This document shows positions 3,490 to 44,446 of a stretch of DNA of 45,436 nucleotides, piece after piece. The notes beneath the pieces were generated by a model that was given only the letters and a program-made list of their open reading frames with translations, did not search any database and was not told the origin of the DNA. Where the stretch lies: NCBI GenBank assembly GCA_027310575.1, contig DAIDAO010000057.1, positions 1-45,436 of the forward strand, in the 5' to 3' direction. Source of the DNA: a bacterium. GTDB lineage: Archaea > Thermoproteota > Nitrososphaeria > Nitrososphaerales > Gagatemarchaeaceae. A program made the position numbers and the translations under genes. Within the stretch, counting starts at the first letter, position 1, and every line of letters begins with the position of its first letter.

Positions 3490-4224
3490 CTAGCGCCACG
3501 CGGTCTCGGGGGCGGCGATCGGAACCGGGGTGAGACCCGCGTTGAGCGAGGATATCTCGAACGAGAGCGAGGGAGCCAGCTCGGTGAACCTCTGTCGCAG
3601 GTCGATCCTCGCCCAGTCATGGGGAGGGATCATGACATGCCAGTACAGGTGCACCTCCCAGTCCTTCGAGAAGAAGAGCCAGTGGGAGACGACCAGCCAG
3701 TGGGGGCTGACCACGGTTCCCAACCACTGCGTCCCGTTCGTTATTCCGAGCTCAGGATGGGAGGCCTGCAGCCATGCGACGAATCTCTCCCTCAGCTGCA
3801 CGGCATAGCCAGCGTCGGTGTTCTCCCCCGGCAGGACGGTGAACTGCAGCGTCCGACTCTGCACAAGGCCATCCCGTTCGCCGCTCACGGTCACGGTAAC
3901 GTTCCCCCCCACGGCTTCGACGCCGGGTATGACAGCCACTTCGCCCACCTGACCGGCGGAGATAAGCTCGGGCGAGACAGAGACCGACGAGTTGGGGGCC
4001 GACGCGGTCAGCTTCACGGCGCGCGCGTCCGGAGCCGACCCGCTCTCTGCGACCGTCACGAGCAGGACGACCCTCTGCCCGGCTATCGCATCTCCCCGCA
4101 GCCCTGCCGGGTAGAGGCTGAGAGCGAACGACTGGGGGGCAGGCCGGGACGGGACGAAGCTCAGGGCCAGGATCGACCCCGCCAGGATGACGAGGATGGC
4201 CGTGGCTGCCAGGACGGCTTTCAT
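3490..4224 (-). CDS. Secreted or membrane-anchored hypothetical protein (244 aa)
   Basis: The N-terminus (MKAVLAATAILVILAGSILAL) is one hydrophobic helix after a single Lys, a signal peptide or anchor. Residues about 30-130 are Val/Ser/Thr-rich with the look of an immunoglobulin-like or invasin-type beta domain (VVLLVTVAESG, VTVTVSGERDG). The C-terminal part is unusual, with many Trp and His (THWLVVSHWLFF-like stretch, then HLYWHVMIPPHDWARIDLR), and may form a separate extracytoplasmic domain. It has no lipobox cysteine. It is alone on its strand, with the 48-residue gene 4392-4538 divergent from it. No family recognised. Confidence 0.6.
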   Translation of the reverse strand: MKAVLAATAILVILAGSILALSFVPSRPAPQSFALSLYPAGLRGDAIAGQRVVLLVTVAESGSAPDARAVKLTASAPNSSVSVSPELISAGQVGEVAVIPGVEAVGGNVTVTVSGERDGLVQSRTLQFTVLPGENTDAGYAVQLRERFVAWLQASHPELGITNGTQWLGTVVSPHWLVVSHWLFFSKDWEVHLYWHVMIPPHDWARIDLRQRFTELAPSLSFEISSLNAGLTPVPIAAPETAWR

Positions 4225-4391
4225 ATCCCGCGGATTCAGCGGAGGCGAGCGCTAATTAGACTGGTACCCGATTTTCAGAAGTGGGAACACTCTGGAGCCC
4301 CATTTGGAGCCGCCGGCGTCCATCACCAGCTCGCTGCCGCGGCCGCTTCGGCAACACAGAAATACGAACCCGTACAGGGCGCAGAAAGAAC

Positions 4392-37537: not shown

Positions 37538-38014
37538 TCAGGTCGACACGGTCACGGCCAGGCGCCTGCACCAGGTTCCAGCTTCGCCTTCGAAGTTGGT
37601 CTCTTGATGGACGGCGACCGGCTTCCCCAAGCGCGCAGCCAGAGCGCCCTGGAAGAAGCCTTCGTGGAACGCGCATTCGAACATCTCCCCCGTTCCCTGG
37701 AGCTGGCCGCACACCGTGCAGTTTGAGATCTGCAGTATCAGGGGGTCGCGGCTCTCGACGGTGAGCGAGCCGAGCCTGTACCCCTGCCAGACCCTAGCGA
37801 ACTCCGCGAGCATCTGGTCAACGGACAGATTCGCCAGCCTTGCGGCTGCCTTCTTGCCCAGCTGCTCCCCGAATTCGTGCATCACCTGCTTCGAGTCTAG
37901 CCCCAGGTATCTGAGGAGAGGCACTATCCCGGGAGCAAAGTAGTCCGCCATAGCGGGGAACTCTCGCCAGAACGATTCCTCCCTTCGCCCGGCTTCCATA
38001 GCCTTCGAGGCCAT
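37538..38014 (-). CDS. V4R-domain protein (158 aa)
   Basis: I start at ATG 38014; the longer frame to 38266 covers promoter DNA and the divergent gene. Residues 95-157 are a V4R (4-vinyl reductase-like) domain with NCTVCGQLQG, FECAFHEGFFQG and GTWCRRLAV, so Cys99, Cys102, Cys114 and Cys149 are available for metal or cofactor binding. The N-terminal 90 residues are helical (FAPGIVPLLRYLGLDSKQVM). V4R domains bind small hydrophobic ligands or cofactors and often act as sensors. The operator-like palindrome 38052-38065 is 38 bases upstream, next to a TATA-like box (about 38038-38046). It is divergent from the HTH_10 regulator. Confidence 0.78.
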   Translation of the reverse strand: MASKAMEAGRREESFWREFPAMADYFAPGIVPLLRYLGLDSKQVMHEFGEQLGKKAAARLANLSVDQMLAEFARVWQGYRLGSLTVESRDPLILQISNCTVCGQLQGTGEMFECAFHEGFFQGALAARLGKPVAVHQETNFEGEAGTWCRRLAVTVST

Positions 38015-38051
38015 GGCGGATAATGGCCCCGACAGGCGATTAAGCTGGTTC

Positions 38052-38065
38052 CCTAAGCGGTTAGG
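38052..38065. promoter_or_regulatory. Palindromic operator CCTAA-N4-TTAGG, site 1
   Basis: CCTAAGCGGTTAGG is a perfect five-base inverted repeat with a four-base spacer; it extends to CCCTAA/TTAGGG. It lies directly upstream of the AT-rich box of the V4R gene. The same pattern recurs at 38868, 38883, 40363 and, degenerately, at 38135. Confidence 0.65.
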
Positions 38066-38114
38066 GGCGTCTCGGCGACGGTGCGATTTCCACTTTTGGG
38101 AATCGTGTTTCCGC

Positions 38115-38124
38115 GTTATATAGG
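38115..38124 (+). promoter_or_regulatory. TATA box of the HTH_10 regulator gene
   Basis: GTTATATAGG is one of the best TATA matches in the window, centred about 32 bases before ATG 38151; transcription should start near 38145. Confidence 0.6.
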
Positions 38125-38134
38125 CGCCACCTAC

Positions 38135-38148
38135 CCTAACCCGTTCAG
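38135..38148. promoter_or_regulatory. Degenerate operator at the HTH_10 start site
   Basis: CCTAACCCGTTCAG keeps CCTAA and TT at the right spacing but has TTCAG instead of TTAGG. It would cover the predicted transcription start of the regulator, as expected for weak autorepression. Confidence 0.4.
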
Positions 38149-38150
38149 CG

Positions 38151-38795
38151 ATGCTGAGGCAGATAGCGCTGCAGGTCAAGGCTGATAATAAGCTGCAGGA
38201 CGCAGCCAGGGCGAACGGCGCGAAGCTGAACGTCGTCGACTGCAAGCCCTTCAACAAGACCGGCATGTCGCTTCTTCTCGAGCTGCACGGGGACCCTCAG
38301 GGCGTCCGAGCCACCACGGCCGCGATCCGGAAGACCGAAGGAGTTAGGCAGGTCGTAGAGGGGGAGAGTTTGGGCGAAGCCACGCCGCTCCTGGTCGTTA
38401 TGGACAGACCCGGGGTCTGCCGCGCATCCAACGACGCAGCGATAGTGTGCCTCGAGTGCGCCCTCAATTCGGAGAACCAGCCGTCGTCATGGCGGTTCAT
38501 AGCGCGCAAGACCAGCGACTTCCGCCAGGTCCTGGCAAGGCTGACGAAAGAGGGGATTGAGACGAGGATAGAAGACGTGGCTCCGCTTGAGCGGAAGGCG
38601 ACCCTTACGGGGAGACAGAAGGAAATAATGGCCACAGCCGTGGCGCAGGGCTACTTCGAGTTCCCTCGGAGGATCAGCCTGACCGGGCTGAGCGAGCTTG
38701 TGGGCGTCAAGCCTTCGACGCTGAGCGAGATACTCAGAAGCGCTGAGCGCAGGATAATGGCGAACGCCCTGGGCGTTCCGTTCCAAGAAGAGTAG
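38151..38795 (+). CDS. HTH_10 (bacterio-opsin activator-type) regulator with cysteine-bearing sensor part (214 aa)
   Basis: The C-terminal 55 residues (LTGRQKEIMATAVAQGYFEFP, then SLTGLSELVGVKPSTLSEIL, each a separate stretch) are a clear HTH_10 domain, the Bat-type DNA-binding domain of archaea. The N-terminal part has an ACT-like alternation (MSLLLELHGDPQGVRATTAA) and four cysteines, Cys31, Cys90, Cys100 and Cys103, the last three close together in PGVC..AIVCLEC. These could hold an Fe-S cluster, a metal or a redox switch. It lies in the centre of the palindrome-linked redox cluster and is the natural candidate to bind CCTAA-N4-TTAGG. Confidence 0.85.
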   Translation: MLRQIALQVKADNKLQDAARANGAKLNVVDCKPFNKTGMSLLLELHGDPQGVRATTAAIRKTEGVRQVVEGESLGEATPLLVVMDRPGVCRASNDAAIVCLECALNSENQPSSWRFIARKTSDFRQVLARLTKEGIETRIEDVAPLERKATLTGRQKEIMATAVAQGYFEFPRRISLTGLSELVGVKPSTLSEILRSAERRIMANALGVPFQEE

Positions 38796-38867
38796 AACCG
38801 CTTACTGCTCCGGACAGCTCGAACTCCAGACAATCTGCTGCACCCGCTTGGATGGCGAATCGTCGCT

Positions 38868-38881
38868 CCTAAGCCGTTAGG
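38868..38881. promoter_or_regulatory. Palindromic operator CCTAA-N4-TTAGG, site 2
   Basis: CCTAAGCCGTTAGG, a perfect five-base inverted repeat with four-base spacer. Site 3 begins 15 bases after the start of this one, so two dimers could bind side by side upstream of the membrane protein gene. Confidence 0.65.
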
Positions 38882-38882
38882 G

Positions 38883-38896
38883 CCTAACGGATTAGG
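38883..38896. promoter_or_regulatory. Palindromic operator CCTAA-N4-TTAGG, site 3
   Basis: CCTAACGGATTAGG, again perfect. The junction with site 2 also forms a 17-base hyphenated palindrome (38874-38890, CCGTTAGG-G-CCTAACGG). A weak AT-rich box (about 38901-38911) follows, 30 bases before ATG 38936, so this arrangement suits activation or recruitment from just upstream of TATA. Confidence 0.65.
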
Positions 38897-38935
38897 GAAA
38901 CGTGCTATCTGCCCCACTAATCTCCATAACAGTCC

Positions 38936-39808
38936 ATGAGCTTCCTAAAGAAAAACGGAAAGCTTGTAGGAACCATACTCGCAGCGACTTCAGTCCTCCT
39001 TCTCAACACAGCACCGGCCTACGCCATCGACCAGTCGGGGCTCGTCTCCGGCGGGTCAATCTGGCTCGAGACGACCATCGCTGTAACGATGGTGTTTGTG
39101 ACCGCAATGGCATTCTCCCTGCAGATAGCCAGAGGGTACTTCCTCAGGACTCTGGAGAAGTTCACGCTCAGGCTGGGGGCCGACATCTGGTGGCTGGCGT
39201 ACGTCCTCATCAGGGACGCGCTCATCTTCGTGTCGTTCATCATGGGACTCATAGTCTTCTTCCCTGGGACCTTCCAGGACTACGACGTGGCCGTCCCATT
39301 CATGCCCCTGTCCGTCTTCCTCTTCGGAGCAGCGCTCATCCTGAAGCTGTACTTCGACGCCGACGAGAACAGAGGGGTATTCAGGGCTGTGACTCTCCTC
39401 GTGTTCGGCGGCACGGTCTCCTGGATCTTCGGGGCCGTCTTCGTGACGGAGACCCCCCTGGCCCTAGGAACGCTGCCGTCCGGCGTAAGCGCCAGCAGTG
39501 GGATCTGGTACACCCTCTACAACACCTTCAGCTCGAGGGCGAACGTCGACCTCTCGATGCTGAGCTTCAACATATTCTTCCCGCTCCTGGGGGTCGTCGC
39601 AGTCCTCGGACTTGCACACCCAATCCTCCACTCCAGGATAGGCAAGAGCACACCCAGAATCAGCCAGAGTCCGGGACCAGCGTCTCCAGTGGGGATGCCG
39701 GGCCGATCGGTCCAGACTCAGCCCGACTCGCCTGGACAGAAGGCGGGTAATGGTTCGCTGCAGGCGTCGTCGCCTCCCGGTAGGGACGGCGTCGAGCACA
39801 TACAATAG
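38936..39808 (+). CDS. Multi-spanning membrane protein of the redox cluster (290 aa)
   Basis: Residues 10-30 (VGTILAATSVLLLNTAPAYA) look like a signal peptide with an AYA cleavage site. Five more hydrophobic helices follow: about 43-65, 85-110, 120-142, 150-172 and 214-236. Several charged residues sit between them (RGYFLRTLEKFTLRLGAD; YFDADENRG). The last 55 residues are Pro/Ser/Gly-rich and disordered. No conserved His pairs of cytochrome b type are obvious. The next gene, 12 bases on, encodes a two-cluster ferredoxin, so a membrane electron-transfer unit is likely. No family recognised. Confidence 0.7.
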   Translation: MSFLKKNGKLVGTILAATSVLLLNTAPAYAIDQSGLVSGGSIWLETTIAVTMVFVTAMAFSLQIARGYFLRTLEKFTLRLGADIWWLAYVLIRDALIFVSFIMGLIVFFPGTFQDYDVAVPFMPLSVFLFGAALILKLYFDADENRGVFRAVTLLVFGGTVSWIFGAVFVTETPLALGTLPSGVSASSGIWYTLYNTFSSRANVDLSMLSFNIFFPLLGVVAVLGLAHPILHSRIGKSTPRISQSPGPASPVGMPGRSVQTQPDSPGQKAGNGSLQASSPPGRDGVEHIQ

Positions 39809-39820
39809 GGGAGAGGGACG

Positions 39821-40333
39821 ATGGGGCTCTACAAGTTCGTCGTCGACGAGACGAAGTGCATGAACTGTGGAGCCTGCATGGACCTCTGCCCCTCCACCTG
39901 TATTGATTTTACAAGACCGACCGACACTTCGTTCTGGGGCGCCGTCATGGGGGGCGTGGCCCCGAAGGAATGGATGATGGAGAAGCCGTACCTGATAGCC
40001 CAGGAAAGATGCACCGGCTGCCAGATCTGCGTGAGGGAGTGCCCGACCAACGCCCTGACCGTCGAGCTCGACGAGGCGAGGCCCACGTCGGCAAGGCCGA
40101 AGCCTGTCATAATCAGGAGGGAGAGGCTTGTCGACGACGGCTACTGGCACCCTCTGTCAGAGTACACGAAGGAGTACCTCAAGCGCCCCGTCAGCAGCAT
40201 GTGGTCTGGGATTTCGGACTGGAAGCCGATGACAGAGGTGCGCGGCGTATCGCAGGTCTGGCGTGGCATGAAGAAGCCGAAGGAGCCCGAAGCGCCACAG
40301 AAGGCTGCGACCCCTAAGGCTGAAGAGCGGTAG
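39821..40333 (+). CDS. Two-[4Fe-4S] ferredoxin with long C-terminal tail (170 aa)
   Basis: Cluster 1: CMNCGACMDLCP (residues 13-24, followed by a further Cys in STC). Cluster 2: CTGCQICVRECP (near 65-76). A 29-residue aromatic insertion between them (SFWGAVMGGVAPKEWMMEKP) and about 90 residues after them (PLSEYTKEYLKRPVSSMWSG) are unusual for a soluble ferredoxin and may dock to the membrane protein encoded just upstream. GGGAGAGGGACG precedes the ATG as a ribosome-binding site. NuoI-like polyferredoxin subunits have a similar layout, but no other Nuo genes are here. Confidence 0.88.
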   Translation: MGLYKFVVDETKCMNCGACMDLCPSTCIDFTRPTDTSFWGAVMGGVAPKEWMMEKPYLIAQERCTGCQICVRECPTNALTVELDEARPTSARPKPVIIRRERLVDDGYWHPLSEYTKEYLKRPVSSMWSGISDWKPMTEVRGVSQVWRGMKKPKEPEAPQKAATPKAEER

Positions 40334-40362
40334 CCCACCTTCTCAATTCTGGAAATCACCAC

Positions 40363-40376
40363 CCTATCTTATTAGG
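40363..40376. promoter_or_regulatory. Palindromic operator, site 4 (one mismatch)
   Basis: CCTATCTTATTAGG has CCTAT in place of CCTAA, with the same four-base spacer and a perfect TTAGG. It also contains the AT-rich core that could serve as TATA box, centred about 36 bases before ATG 40406, so a bound regulator would compete with TBP here. Confidence 0.5.
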
Positions 40377-40405
40377 GAACGGGGGCGTCCGCGTCGGTGA
40401 AAGAC

Positions 40406-40711
40406 ATGGCTACCTGGCGGAATCCGCGCGCGCCGACCCTACTGGAGGGTCTCGCGGTCAGGTCGCAGATCATCGAGTGCCCGCTGCACTCATTCGCGGT
40501 CACGGTCTCGAAGTGCAGCGGAATAGGAGAATGCGCCTCGGTCTGCCCGGTGGGGGTGTTCGGCACGGATTCAGGTGGGAGGTGCACGGTGTACAACGAG
40601 GAACTCTGCTTCGGGTGCATGGCGTGCGTCGCCCAGTGCGCGGAGAGGGGGGTGGCTGTCACTTCGCGGGACTCGCGGAGATACCCCTCGATTGAAGATC
40701 TGATGCGATGA
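40406..40711 (+). CDS. [3Fe-4S][4Fe-4S]-type ferredoxin, FixX-like (101 aa)
   Basis: ATG 40406 is preferred to GTG 40397 because GGTGAAAG lies just before it. The first cluster motif is C-x2-Ile-x2-C-x3-C-P (CSGIGECASVCP): the middle Cys is replaced by Ile, the usual sign of a [3Fe-4S] cluster. The second is CFGCMACVAQC, complete but with Ala instead of Pro after it. An extra Cys (IECPLHSF) near residue 28 could be an additional ligand. It ends the palindrome-linked cluster and may feed or drain the membrane module upstream. Confidence 0.85.
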   Translation: MATWRNPRAPTLLEGLAVRSQIIECPLHSFAVTVSKCSGIGECASVCPVGVFGTDSGGRCTVYNEELCFGCMACVAQCAERGVAVTSRDSRRYPSIEDLMR

Positions 40712-42400: not shown

Positions 42401-44188
42401 CTACTTCGTTCTGACTATGACGTTGCCGCCGCCCAAGATGTTGTGCGAGCTGTGGATCAGCGTGCCGCCAGCGTCGGGGTCGCCGAGCCAGATCTTGATG
42501 GCAAAGGTATCGGTGCCCTGGCTTCCACCGTCATGCGCCATCACTCTGAAGTGGTAACCCGAGTCGCCGTTTACGATGGCTGTCCCTTTGAACTGAGCAC
42601 TGGATTCGCTCACAACGAGCCATGTGATGCTGGTCGACTCCAGATTGATACCGCTGTCGTGGAACTGGAACTCAAGGTTGCCCTGGGCCTGGCCCTTCTG
42701 ATATTGGGCTACGAATCCGAACGTCGCCTTTCCTGGGAGGGGGTTGTTCAAGTCGTCAAGTGGATAATACCAGCCTCCGCCGGCAGCGTTGCCGTTGGGA
42801 TCATAGACCACTAACGTCCATGTTTCCGTAGCGCCTGAGACGGACGATGAGAGTGTGTAGATCCCCGGTACGGAAGCGACGATAGCGAAGACCGCCTCGC
42901 CCTCAGCACTGGTCGTCGCTGCTGCGGGAGAGATAGTTGGCCCTTCAGGACTGGCGGTTATGGCGACCGGGGCGCCCCCAATTGGCTGACCATTGTTGTT
43001 CGTAACCAGTACAGTGACTGTTGCAGATGTACCCGTTGGCACGACGGAGTCTCCTGAAACGCTCACTATGGGAATGCCTGGTTTGACAACGTAGACTCCA
43101 TCCAGGACGCATGCTACGTAGACATCTCCGTTCAGTGGGTTGAAGGCAAGATACCATGGGATACGCCCTACATCAACCGAACTCACAGTTGCATAGGTCG
43201 TGGGGTCGATGACGAATACCTTGTTGTTGACCCAGACGTCGTACCCCGAGTTACTTGGCTCGTAGGTGTTGCTTGTCGCATACAGGTAACCATTGTTGGG
43301 ATTAAAAGCAGTAGCGTAGACATGGCTGTCGACGAGGCCAAGGCTGTTCAGGGTGGTCGACGCGGGTGTTGGGAAGGTTGCGACAAGTGTGTTGGTTGAT
43401 CCGTCGATGACGGAAATGTAACCTTCGTAGTTGGTTGCCATGTAGATGTATCCGTTGGTTGGGTCAAAGGATGGGTTCATCACTTCGTACGGGGTGTTGA
43501 TGCGCGCCACCCACTCGCCTGCGGAATCACTGTAGACTGACACACCATTGGGGCCGGTCACATATAGGTCTCCGTTAAGGGAATCAAAGACGAGCCCCCC
43601 GTAGCGGGGGGACACACCAGAACCTTGGCCTGTGGTGCTGATAATCGAGTTGGTCGTAGCGTCAATCACTGTCAATAGAGGCGAGGACCAGGAGGATCCC
43701 AGAACGAAGACGTGCCCATTCTGAGAGTTGATAGCCAAGCTGGCCACGCTGTTGTCGGCCCCCAAATCTACGGCTGCGATCACAGTCGAAGACACTATAT
43801 CGACGACGAGAACTACGCCACTTGTCTGCCATCCAGTGATGGGGAGAGCGTAGCCTCCAACGAACAGGTGTTCGTTGCTTGTGTCGACAGTCATGGCGGT
43901 GGGACAGAAATAGGCATCTGGGGTCCAGGCGGAAAGCATCGACCAAGACAAGTCCATGATAATTGAATTCGTAGTAGGGTCGATGACCGAAACGCCGCCA
44001 GGACAACCTTCCATACCCACAAACACATATCCCGTTGTCGGATCAACCGTTATGGGAAGAGGCCTTCCGGGTGTGGGAATCACTGAATCAACGGAGTCCG
44101 CTCTTACTACACCACTGGCAGAGGAGAGCAGAAGGATGAATGAAAGGAGTATCAGAACGGTACTGTTCTTAGCTTTCCCTGAGAACAT
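42401..44188 (-). CDS. Secreted YVTN beta-propeller protein with Ig-like and post-COAP-like domains (595 aa)
   Basis: Signal peptide at residues 10-30 (TVLILLSFILLLSSASGVVRA). Residues about 35-370 are repeated propeller blades of the type NGYVFVGGY..ISVIDPTTNTVV (each about 45 residues: NGHVFVLGSS, NGDLYVTGPN, NGYIYMATNY, NGYLYATSNT, NGDVYVACVL). Residues 375-465 are a bacterial-Ig-like fold (VTVLVTNNNGQPIGGAPVAITA). The last 130 residues (GGGWYYP, FGFVAQYQKG, LEFQFHDSGINLEST, IKIWLGDPDAGG, GGGNVIVRTK) resemble the post-COAP domain of archaeal surface proteins. No C-terminal anchor is seen, so it is probably released or bound to the S-layer. Confidence 0.85.
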   Translation of the reverse strand: MFSGKAKNSTVLILLSFILLLSSASGVVRADSVDSVIPTPGRPLPITVDPTTGYVFVGMEGCPGGVSVIDPTTNSIIMDLSWSMLSAWTPDAYFCPTAMTVDTSNEHLFVGGYALPITGWQTSGVVLVVDIVSSTVIAAVDLGADNSVASLAINSQNGHVFVLGSSWSSPLLTVIDATTNSIISTTGQGSGVSPRYGGLVFDSLNGDLYVTGPNGVSVYSDSAGEWVARINTPYEVMNPSFDPTNGYIYMATNYEGYISVIDGSTNTLVATFPTPASTTLNSLGLVDSHVYATAFNPNNGYLYATSNTYEPSNSGYDVWVNNKVFVIDPTTYATVSSVDVGRIPWYLAFNPLNGDVYVACVLDGVYVVKPGIPIVSVSGDSVVPTGTSATVTVLVTNNNGQPIGGAPVAITASPEGPTISPAAATTSAEGEAVFAIVASVPGIYTLSSSVSGATETWTLVVYDPNGNAAGGGWYYPLDDLNNPLPGKATFGFVAQYQKGQAQGNLEFQFHDSGINLESTSITWLVVSESSAQFKGTAIVNGDSGYHFRVMAHDGGSQGTDTFAIKIWLGDPDAGGTLIHSSHNILGGGNVIVRTK

Positions 44189-44446
44189 CTCTTTTCGGGA
44201 GGTGTCAAGGTGGGCCTGCTTTGGAGTCGTTGCACGTTTCCCAAGAGTGAGAACCAGGCAGCGCTACCCCCAACCCCTTAGGCATGTCAATCGTCAGGAA
44301 GAGCAGATATCCGACGAAATTGTCCCACATCAACAGGCCGACTCGGCCCGCCCACGCCACCCAACCAGGTCCTCTGTTATTCTTTCCGGCGTCAGAATCG
44401 TGAGCGGTTAGGAAAGAAGGGAGGGGTATTCGACCCTTGCAAGAGG
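44189..44446. other. Gap between the beta-propeller gene and the tRNA
   Basis: No convincing gene; an 88-residue minus-strand frame here runs into the tRNA and is rejected. CCCAACCCCTTAGG at 44269-44282 matches the CCTAA-N4-TTAGG operator with one mismatch, about 85 bases upstream of the beta-propeller ATG. A pyrimidine-rich tract on the minus strand just after the tRNA (about 44408-44428) may be its terminator. Confidence 0.3.

Follow-up and report, generated by a model that had tools for sequence, protein, structure and literature searches.

The redox gene cluster at 37538–40711 of the window, the 45,436-nucleotide stretch of DNA that was analysed, raises the question of which factor reads the palindrome repeated in its promoters, and how far control by that factor extends. 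The first-pass annotation had proposed that CCTAA-N4-TTAGG (here palindrome A) marks all four promoters of a self-contained regulon, with the HTH_10 protein as binding factor and autorepressor. A rescan of the window recovered the five annotated palindromes at the coordinates given for them (three perfect, one with one mismatch and one with two; Table 1). The three perfect copies fall within 850 bp, whereas 400 dinucleotide shuffles gave a mean of 0.005 and a maximum of 1 per window; the 11 matches at up to two mismatches represent no excess over the 7.2 found by chance. Two further one-mismatch copies, at 38335–38348 and 44269–44282, had been missed. The former lies within the HTH_10 open reading frame, the same in-coding copy occurs in L053, and it is put down to coding conservation.

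Table 1. Genes, promoter elements and palindromes of the cluster, with one additional site outside it
Feature	Coordinates	Strand	Remarks
Palindrome B, perfect	4270-4287	-	about 63 bp before the start of gene 3490-4224; outside the cluster
V4R-domain protein, 158 aa	37538..38014	-	no DNA-binding domain; MsvR-like C-terminal part
TATA-like element of the V4R gene	38039..38043	-	exactly 8 bp from palindrome A; TTAA/TTAAC at the same spacing in 6/6 orthologous promoters
Palindrome A, perfect (CCTAAGCGGTTAGG)	38052..38065	.	predicted to serve the V4R gene (activator geometry) and the regulator; conserved in genus orthologues
Palindrome B (TTTCCACTTTTGGGAATC, then G)	38087..38104	+	directly upstream of the regulator TATA box; present throughout the promoter alignment of orthologues
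TATA box of the HTH_10 gene (TTATATA)	38116..38122	+	near-invariant TTAAATA/TTATATA in the promoter alignment
Degenerate palindrome A′, two mismatches	38135..38148	.	between TATA box and start codon of the HTH_10 gene; conserved CCCTAA half
HTH_10 regulator, 214 aa	38151..38795	+	PF04967, E 8e-17; two predicted beta-alpha-beta-beta-alpha-beta domains and a C-terminal HTH_10
Palindrome A, perfect, distal copy of the membrane-protein promoter	38868..38881	.	from the sequence scan; tandem neighbour of the proximal copy
Palindrome A, perfect, proximal copy of the membrane-protein promoter	38883..38896	.	conserved in linked clusters
TATA-like CTATCT	38905..38910	+	8 bp after palindrome A; sequence and spacing the same in 5/5 promoters
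Membrane protein, 290 aa	38936..39808	+	family unassigned by profiles; ferredoxin gene always next
Ferredoxin, 170 aa	39821..40333	+	two [4Fe-4S] motifs; PF00037 and related families
Palindrome B of the last-ferredoxin promoter	40340..40357	+	conserved in four orthologous promoters
Palindrome A copy, one mismatch	40363..40376	.	over the TATA region of the last ferredoxin; judged not a conserved site
Last ferredoxin, 104 aa	40397..40711	+	palindrome B promoter only; PF12838, PF00037

Alignment of orthologous promoters supports palindrome A at three of the four promoters, not at all four as annotated. In the degenerate copy A′, one half is almost invariant and several orthologues carry versions with zero or one mismatch; judged by this conservation, A′ is a real site. 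The proximal site of the membrane-protein promoter stands at -51 to -53 in each of four linked clusters, among which this genome alone has the tandem second copy, and an unlinked copy (L250, in G009) has it at -52 with one mismatch; the membrane-protein promoters of G016 and G019 have no palindrome A. The left half of the copy at the last ferredoxin is missing in all four orthologous promoters, which read CCGTCTCTTATTA and similar and keep the TATA part alone (CTCTTATTA). Palindrome A was accordingly ruled out as the site of this promoter, the copy being a non-conserved overlap with the TATA region, and the last ferredoxin carries a second element, palindrome B, instead.

The gene pair behind the tandem promoter, membrane protein and ferredoxin (38936–40333), was found in 11 of 300 genomes of the order, with the ferredoxin following in all 11, and is probably co-transcribed. 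In another family, too, the pair adjoins or stands near HTH_10 genes (L251, L256). The membrane protein has no match in Pfam or NCBIfam, and a fold assignment was dropped because the model was too poor (mean pLDDT 48). The divergent V4R protein matches PF02830 below the Pfam cut-off (E 3e-4) and aligns to positions 122–223 of the 236 of the NCBIfam MsvR profile; its alignment displays an invariant cysteine cluster, C-x2-C-x11-C, and a terminal cysteine.

Palindrome B (TTYYCA-N4-TGRRAATC) had escaped the first-pass annotation. Scanned across the genus as TTYYCA-N4-TGRGAATCG, it occurs in 23 of 31 genomes, and the reversed control gave 0 matches. It is located directly upstream of TATA, 59–69 bp before the start codon for most of its genes, which include the regulator, pyruvate:ferredoxin oxidoreductase (POR), a universal-stress-like protein, a CBS-domain-like protein and others (named by eye from sequence). 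A full MsvR was considered as its reader and rejected, there being none in the genome. The distant gene with a perfect copy, 3490–4224 on the minus strand, encodes a protein of 244 aa that is predicted to be secreted. Both palindromes occur as one-mismatch copies at 44236–44282 of the window, about 65–95 bp upstream of a beta-propeller-like gene (42401–44188, minus strand), in the order that they have at the regulator and with no obvious TATA box there. Near-copies of both also lie close together elsewhere in the genome (G000:C20:23338-23410 and G000:C48:85226-85380).

Beyond the cluster, the 1.58-Mb draft genome contains 11 perfect copies of palindrome A, against 0 for the reversed motif used as control. 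In the genus (31 genomes) the numbers are 90 and 15, counts that are not independent, since several genomes are near-duplicates (G008, G009 and G030 have identical promoters at OsmC and the regulator, and G017, G028 and G029 share one promoter) and independence is overstated; at some genes a given 14-mer may have arisen by chance. With spacers of 0–12 bases allowed in five genomes, 42 of 55 matches have a spacer of four (p about 1e-35). The bases flanking the core and those of the N4 are weakly biased, as expected of an operator rather than a repeat. Short palindromes do arise by chance, and the window shows no enrichment of the relaxed pattern; nevertheless, the excess over shuffles, over the reversed control and over other spacers, together with an N4 that varies freely while the halves stay and the distance to TATA is fixed, leaves only a negligible likelihood that the copies arose by chance or represent a structural DNA element, for instance a terminator or a repeat, and for the conserved sites that reading is refuted.

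The same scans of the genome and its relatives bear on whether the pattern is confined to the cluster. Three perfect copies so close together would suit a local regulon of the four promoters of 37538–40711, but eight of the 11 perfect sites lie outside it, several at conserved orthologous positions, the fourth promoter is unmarked, and conserved POR sites in nine genomes refute a purely local regulon, which we regard as highly improbable. The palindrome thus stands as the marker of a regulon, although not of a self-contained one.

The composition of this regulon was read from the genes downstream of 69 fetched sites, which recur across genomes. POR gamma-delta is the gene with sites in nine genomes, at 16–17 bp from the start of the site to the ATG. 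Other recurring genes encode a TAT-type [2Fe-2S] Fer2_2 protein, 2-oxoacid:ferredoxin oxidoreductase (KOR), TusA, OsmC, a GltD-like Fer4_20 enzyme and cupredoxin/COX2-like proteins, and single cases include Nramp, radical SAM, DsbD-like and DUF1326 proteins. The sites fall into two geometries, classes that were defined post hoc, after the sequences had been seen. In the first, palindrome-N8-TATA, belong the V4R gene (6/6), the membrane protein (5/5), OsmC, the paralogous regulator described below, radical SAM, L107 and most promoters of a 247-aa membrane gene; the A-T fraction of these sites peaks at 0.67–1.0 at bases 9–12 after the palindrome. The second class, with the palindrome between TATA and the start codon, comprises POR, Fer2_2, KOR, TusA, Nramp, DUF1326, genes of 256, 198 and 326 aa, the cupredoxins and the A′ site of the regulator. 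The annotated difference in position relative to TATA therefore holds, and takes the form of a systematic two-class rule. By what is generally known of archaeal promoters, the site upstream of TATA would be an activator position and the one between TATA and the start a repressor position.

The promoter of the HTH_10 gene points to the reader of palindrome A. Most orthologues have a perfect copy about 100 bp upstream (97–101 bp in most of the genus) and a degenerate one over the start, with the TATA box and palindrome B between them; the place is fixed and the N4 variable. Three regulator promoters (L061, L064, L068) have no upstream site. Because the arrangement persists in orthologues without the divergent V4R gene, the upstream copy appears to serve the regulator itself. 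Five homologues that belong to other genera or to one other family (L036–L040, 33–44% identity) retain some or all of the arrangement, and a perfect palindrome lies 58 bp ahead of the start of a paralogue in the same genome (C30, 51% identity). Most homologues, to identities as low as 33%, keep the recognition-helix stretch KPSTLSEILR intact. That different lineages conserve the palindrome in the promoter of the regulator gene, and that it recurs in that of the paralogue, supports the proposed autoregulation.

The distribution of sites among genomes is in agreement with this assignment. The 20 genomes with an HTH_10 orthologue contain 81 sites and the 11 without it contain 9 (Mann-Whitney p 2e-4, a test that ignores phylogeny). 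The complete genome G005 has neither orthologue nor sites, and in G001, where the orthologue is the sole family member detected, there are nine perfect sites. Sites occur despite no detected regulator in three incomplete genomes (five in G021, two in G017 and one in G006). The own-promoter sites of distant homologues, the scarcity of sites where the regulator is missing and the case of G001 together indicate, if indirectly, that the HTH_10 protein, proposed in the annotation as the binding factor, very probably reads palindrome A and regulates its own gene. It is unlikely that a different protein or mainly a paralogous HTH_10 reads the palindrome, with the HTH_10 gene of the window as a mere target: the genome does encode six HTH_10 proteins, and the recognition helix of C30, itself preceded by a perfect site, is nearly identical, but the G001 case and the co-occurrence of site and orthologue across genera and families, including in the orthologue's own promoter, argue against it.

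The regulator matches PF04967 with 61.2 bits, against a cut-off of 23.1. A Pfam profile search of its 214 residues matched HTH families alone and found no PAS or GAF domain. The structural model (mean pLDDT 85.7) has an order of secondary-structure elements that fits two beta-alpha-beta-beta-alpha-beta domains before the HTH; a fold search with the model gave no convincing whole-length match, and the search for solved relatives returned chance-level chaperonin matches only. Residues C31, C90, C100 and C103 are invariant, among just 24 invariant columns in an alignment of 23 sequences. These four N-terminal cysteines are a plausible candidate for a redox or iron-sulphur sensor, as an Fe-S cluster or a thiol switch, and a role as zinc holders is possible.

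The HTH_10 protein might use palindrome A in answer to a non-redox signal, such as an organic or amino acid held in two ACT-like domains, with carbon-flux genes as targets and the cysteines holding structural zinc. The modelled order of secondary structure, the presence of POR, KOR and the GltD-like enzyme, which are carbon and nitrogen enzymes, and the fact that no solved relative shows a cluster are compatible with such a signal; the invariance of the four cysteines and targets such as OsmC, TusA, cupredoxins, Nramp, the MsvR-related V4R protein and the ferredoxins speak against it, and we consider it possible but rather doubtful.

Overall, the sequence patterns make it likely that palindrome A is the operator of a dimeric HTH_10 protein with a cysteine sensor, which exerts position-dependent control over its own gene and a redox regulon. 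We infer that the protein binds CCTAA-N4-TTAGG with one subunit per TTAGG half, and would control, in addition to itself, redox and iron-sulphur genes scattered over the genome. An operator 8 bp upstream of TATA (V4R, membrane-ferredoxin, OsmC, radical SAM, paralogue) would probably activate by helping TBP/TFB, and one between TATA and the start codon (POR, KOR, [2Fe-2S], TusA, cupredoxins, Nramp, A′) would probably repress by blocking RNA polymerase, so that the docking site appears to turn genes on from before TATA and off from over the start. The four cysteines would probably form the redox- or oxygen-sensitive centre, an Fe-S cluster or thiols, that sets binding.

Among characterized regulators, Bat of Halobacterium salinarum uses an upstream site to control, according to oxygen, both its own gene and a small set of other genes (PMC1885257, PMC1447603). 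The window regulator shares its C-terminal bacterioopsin-activator-type HTH. By contrast, Bat contains PAS and GAF domains and responds to light and oxygen, whereas the Nitrososphaerota protein matches neither domain; it has two predicted beta-alpha-beta-beta-alpha-beta domains instead, and its four cysteines are invariant. The bop UAS of Bat (ACCcnactagTTnG) may share the frame CC-n3-N4-TTnG with palindrome A, a possible lead. A CC-N8-TTNGG site, framed on this consensus, was absent from a single Haloplanus plasmid rhodopsin promoter, and no printed occurrence of that consensus was found in the literature searched, a set outside which the primary Bat papers lie.

The haloarchaeal NarO and DmsR, regulators of anaerobic respiration that resemble bacterioopsin activators, have an HTH without PAS or GAF, and are linked to the sensing of oxygen and to the control of redox enzymes (PMC11218638, PMC1447603). 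The HTH_10 protein resembles them in lacking both domains and in its predicted redox-enzyme targets. NarO is also cysteine-bearing. The motif reported at denitrification promoters is CGAAYATDKTYG, with a reader that is not established (PMC11218638). The operator described here is CCTAA-N4-TTAGG, not CGAAYATDKTYG, and the targets and phylum are different.

The methanogen redox regulator MsvR autoregulates via the inverted repeat TTCGTA-N4-TACGAA, and the cysteines of its V4R domain affect redox-dependent DNA binding (PMC3729527). The divergent V4R protein likewise has a V4R domain with conserved cysteines, and the repeat frame, TTC-n2-A-N4-T-n2-GAA, resembles palindrome B. However, a DNA-binding domain is missing from the V4R protein, and the DNA-binding protein here is the unrelated HTH_10; a full MsvR, with fused DNA-binding and V4R parts, was not found in the genome, and the V4R protein of the window remains far below the equivalog cut-off (67 versus 220 bits).

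The palindrome A operator was not found in print in the literature searched. From the promoters compared, it marks the regulator and many redox genes across uncultured soil and acid-mine archaea, and is probably the docking site of that regulator. More tentatively, the protein may govern redox genes globally in uncultured Nitrososphaerota, as a regulator not described before whose four cysteines form a redox or Fe-S centre, and may act as activator or repressor by operator place alone, in combination with palindrome B, which another factor would read. The comparison supplies a defined operator, a putative sensor and a target list for a phylum known mainly from metagenomes, and how these archaea adjust oxygen-sensitive ferredoxin metabolism can now be tested using a single protein and a handful of promoter fragments. 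The fixed pair of geometries would also make it possible to test cleanly whether one archaeal factor activates and represses according to position; if the proposal is true, the HTH_10 regulator would be an archaeal counterpart of FNR.
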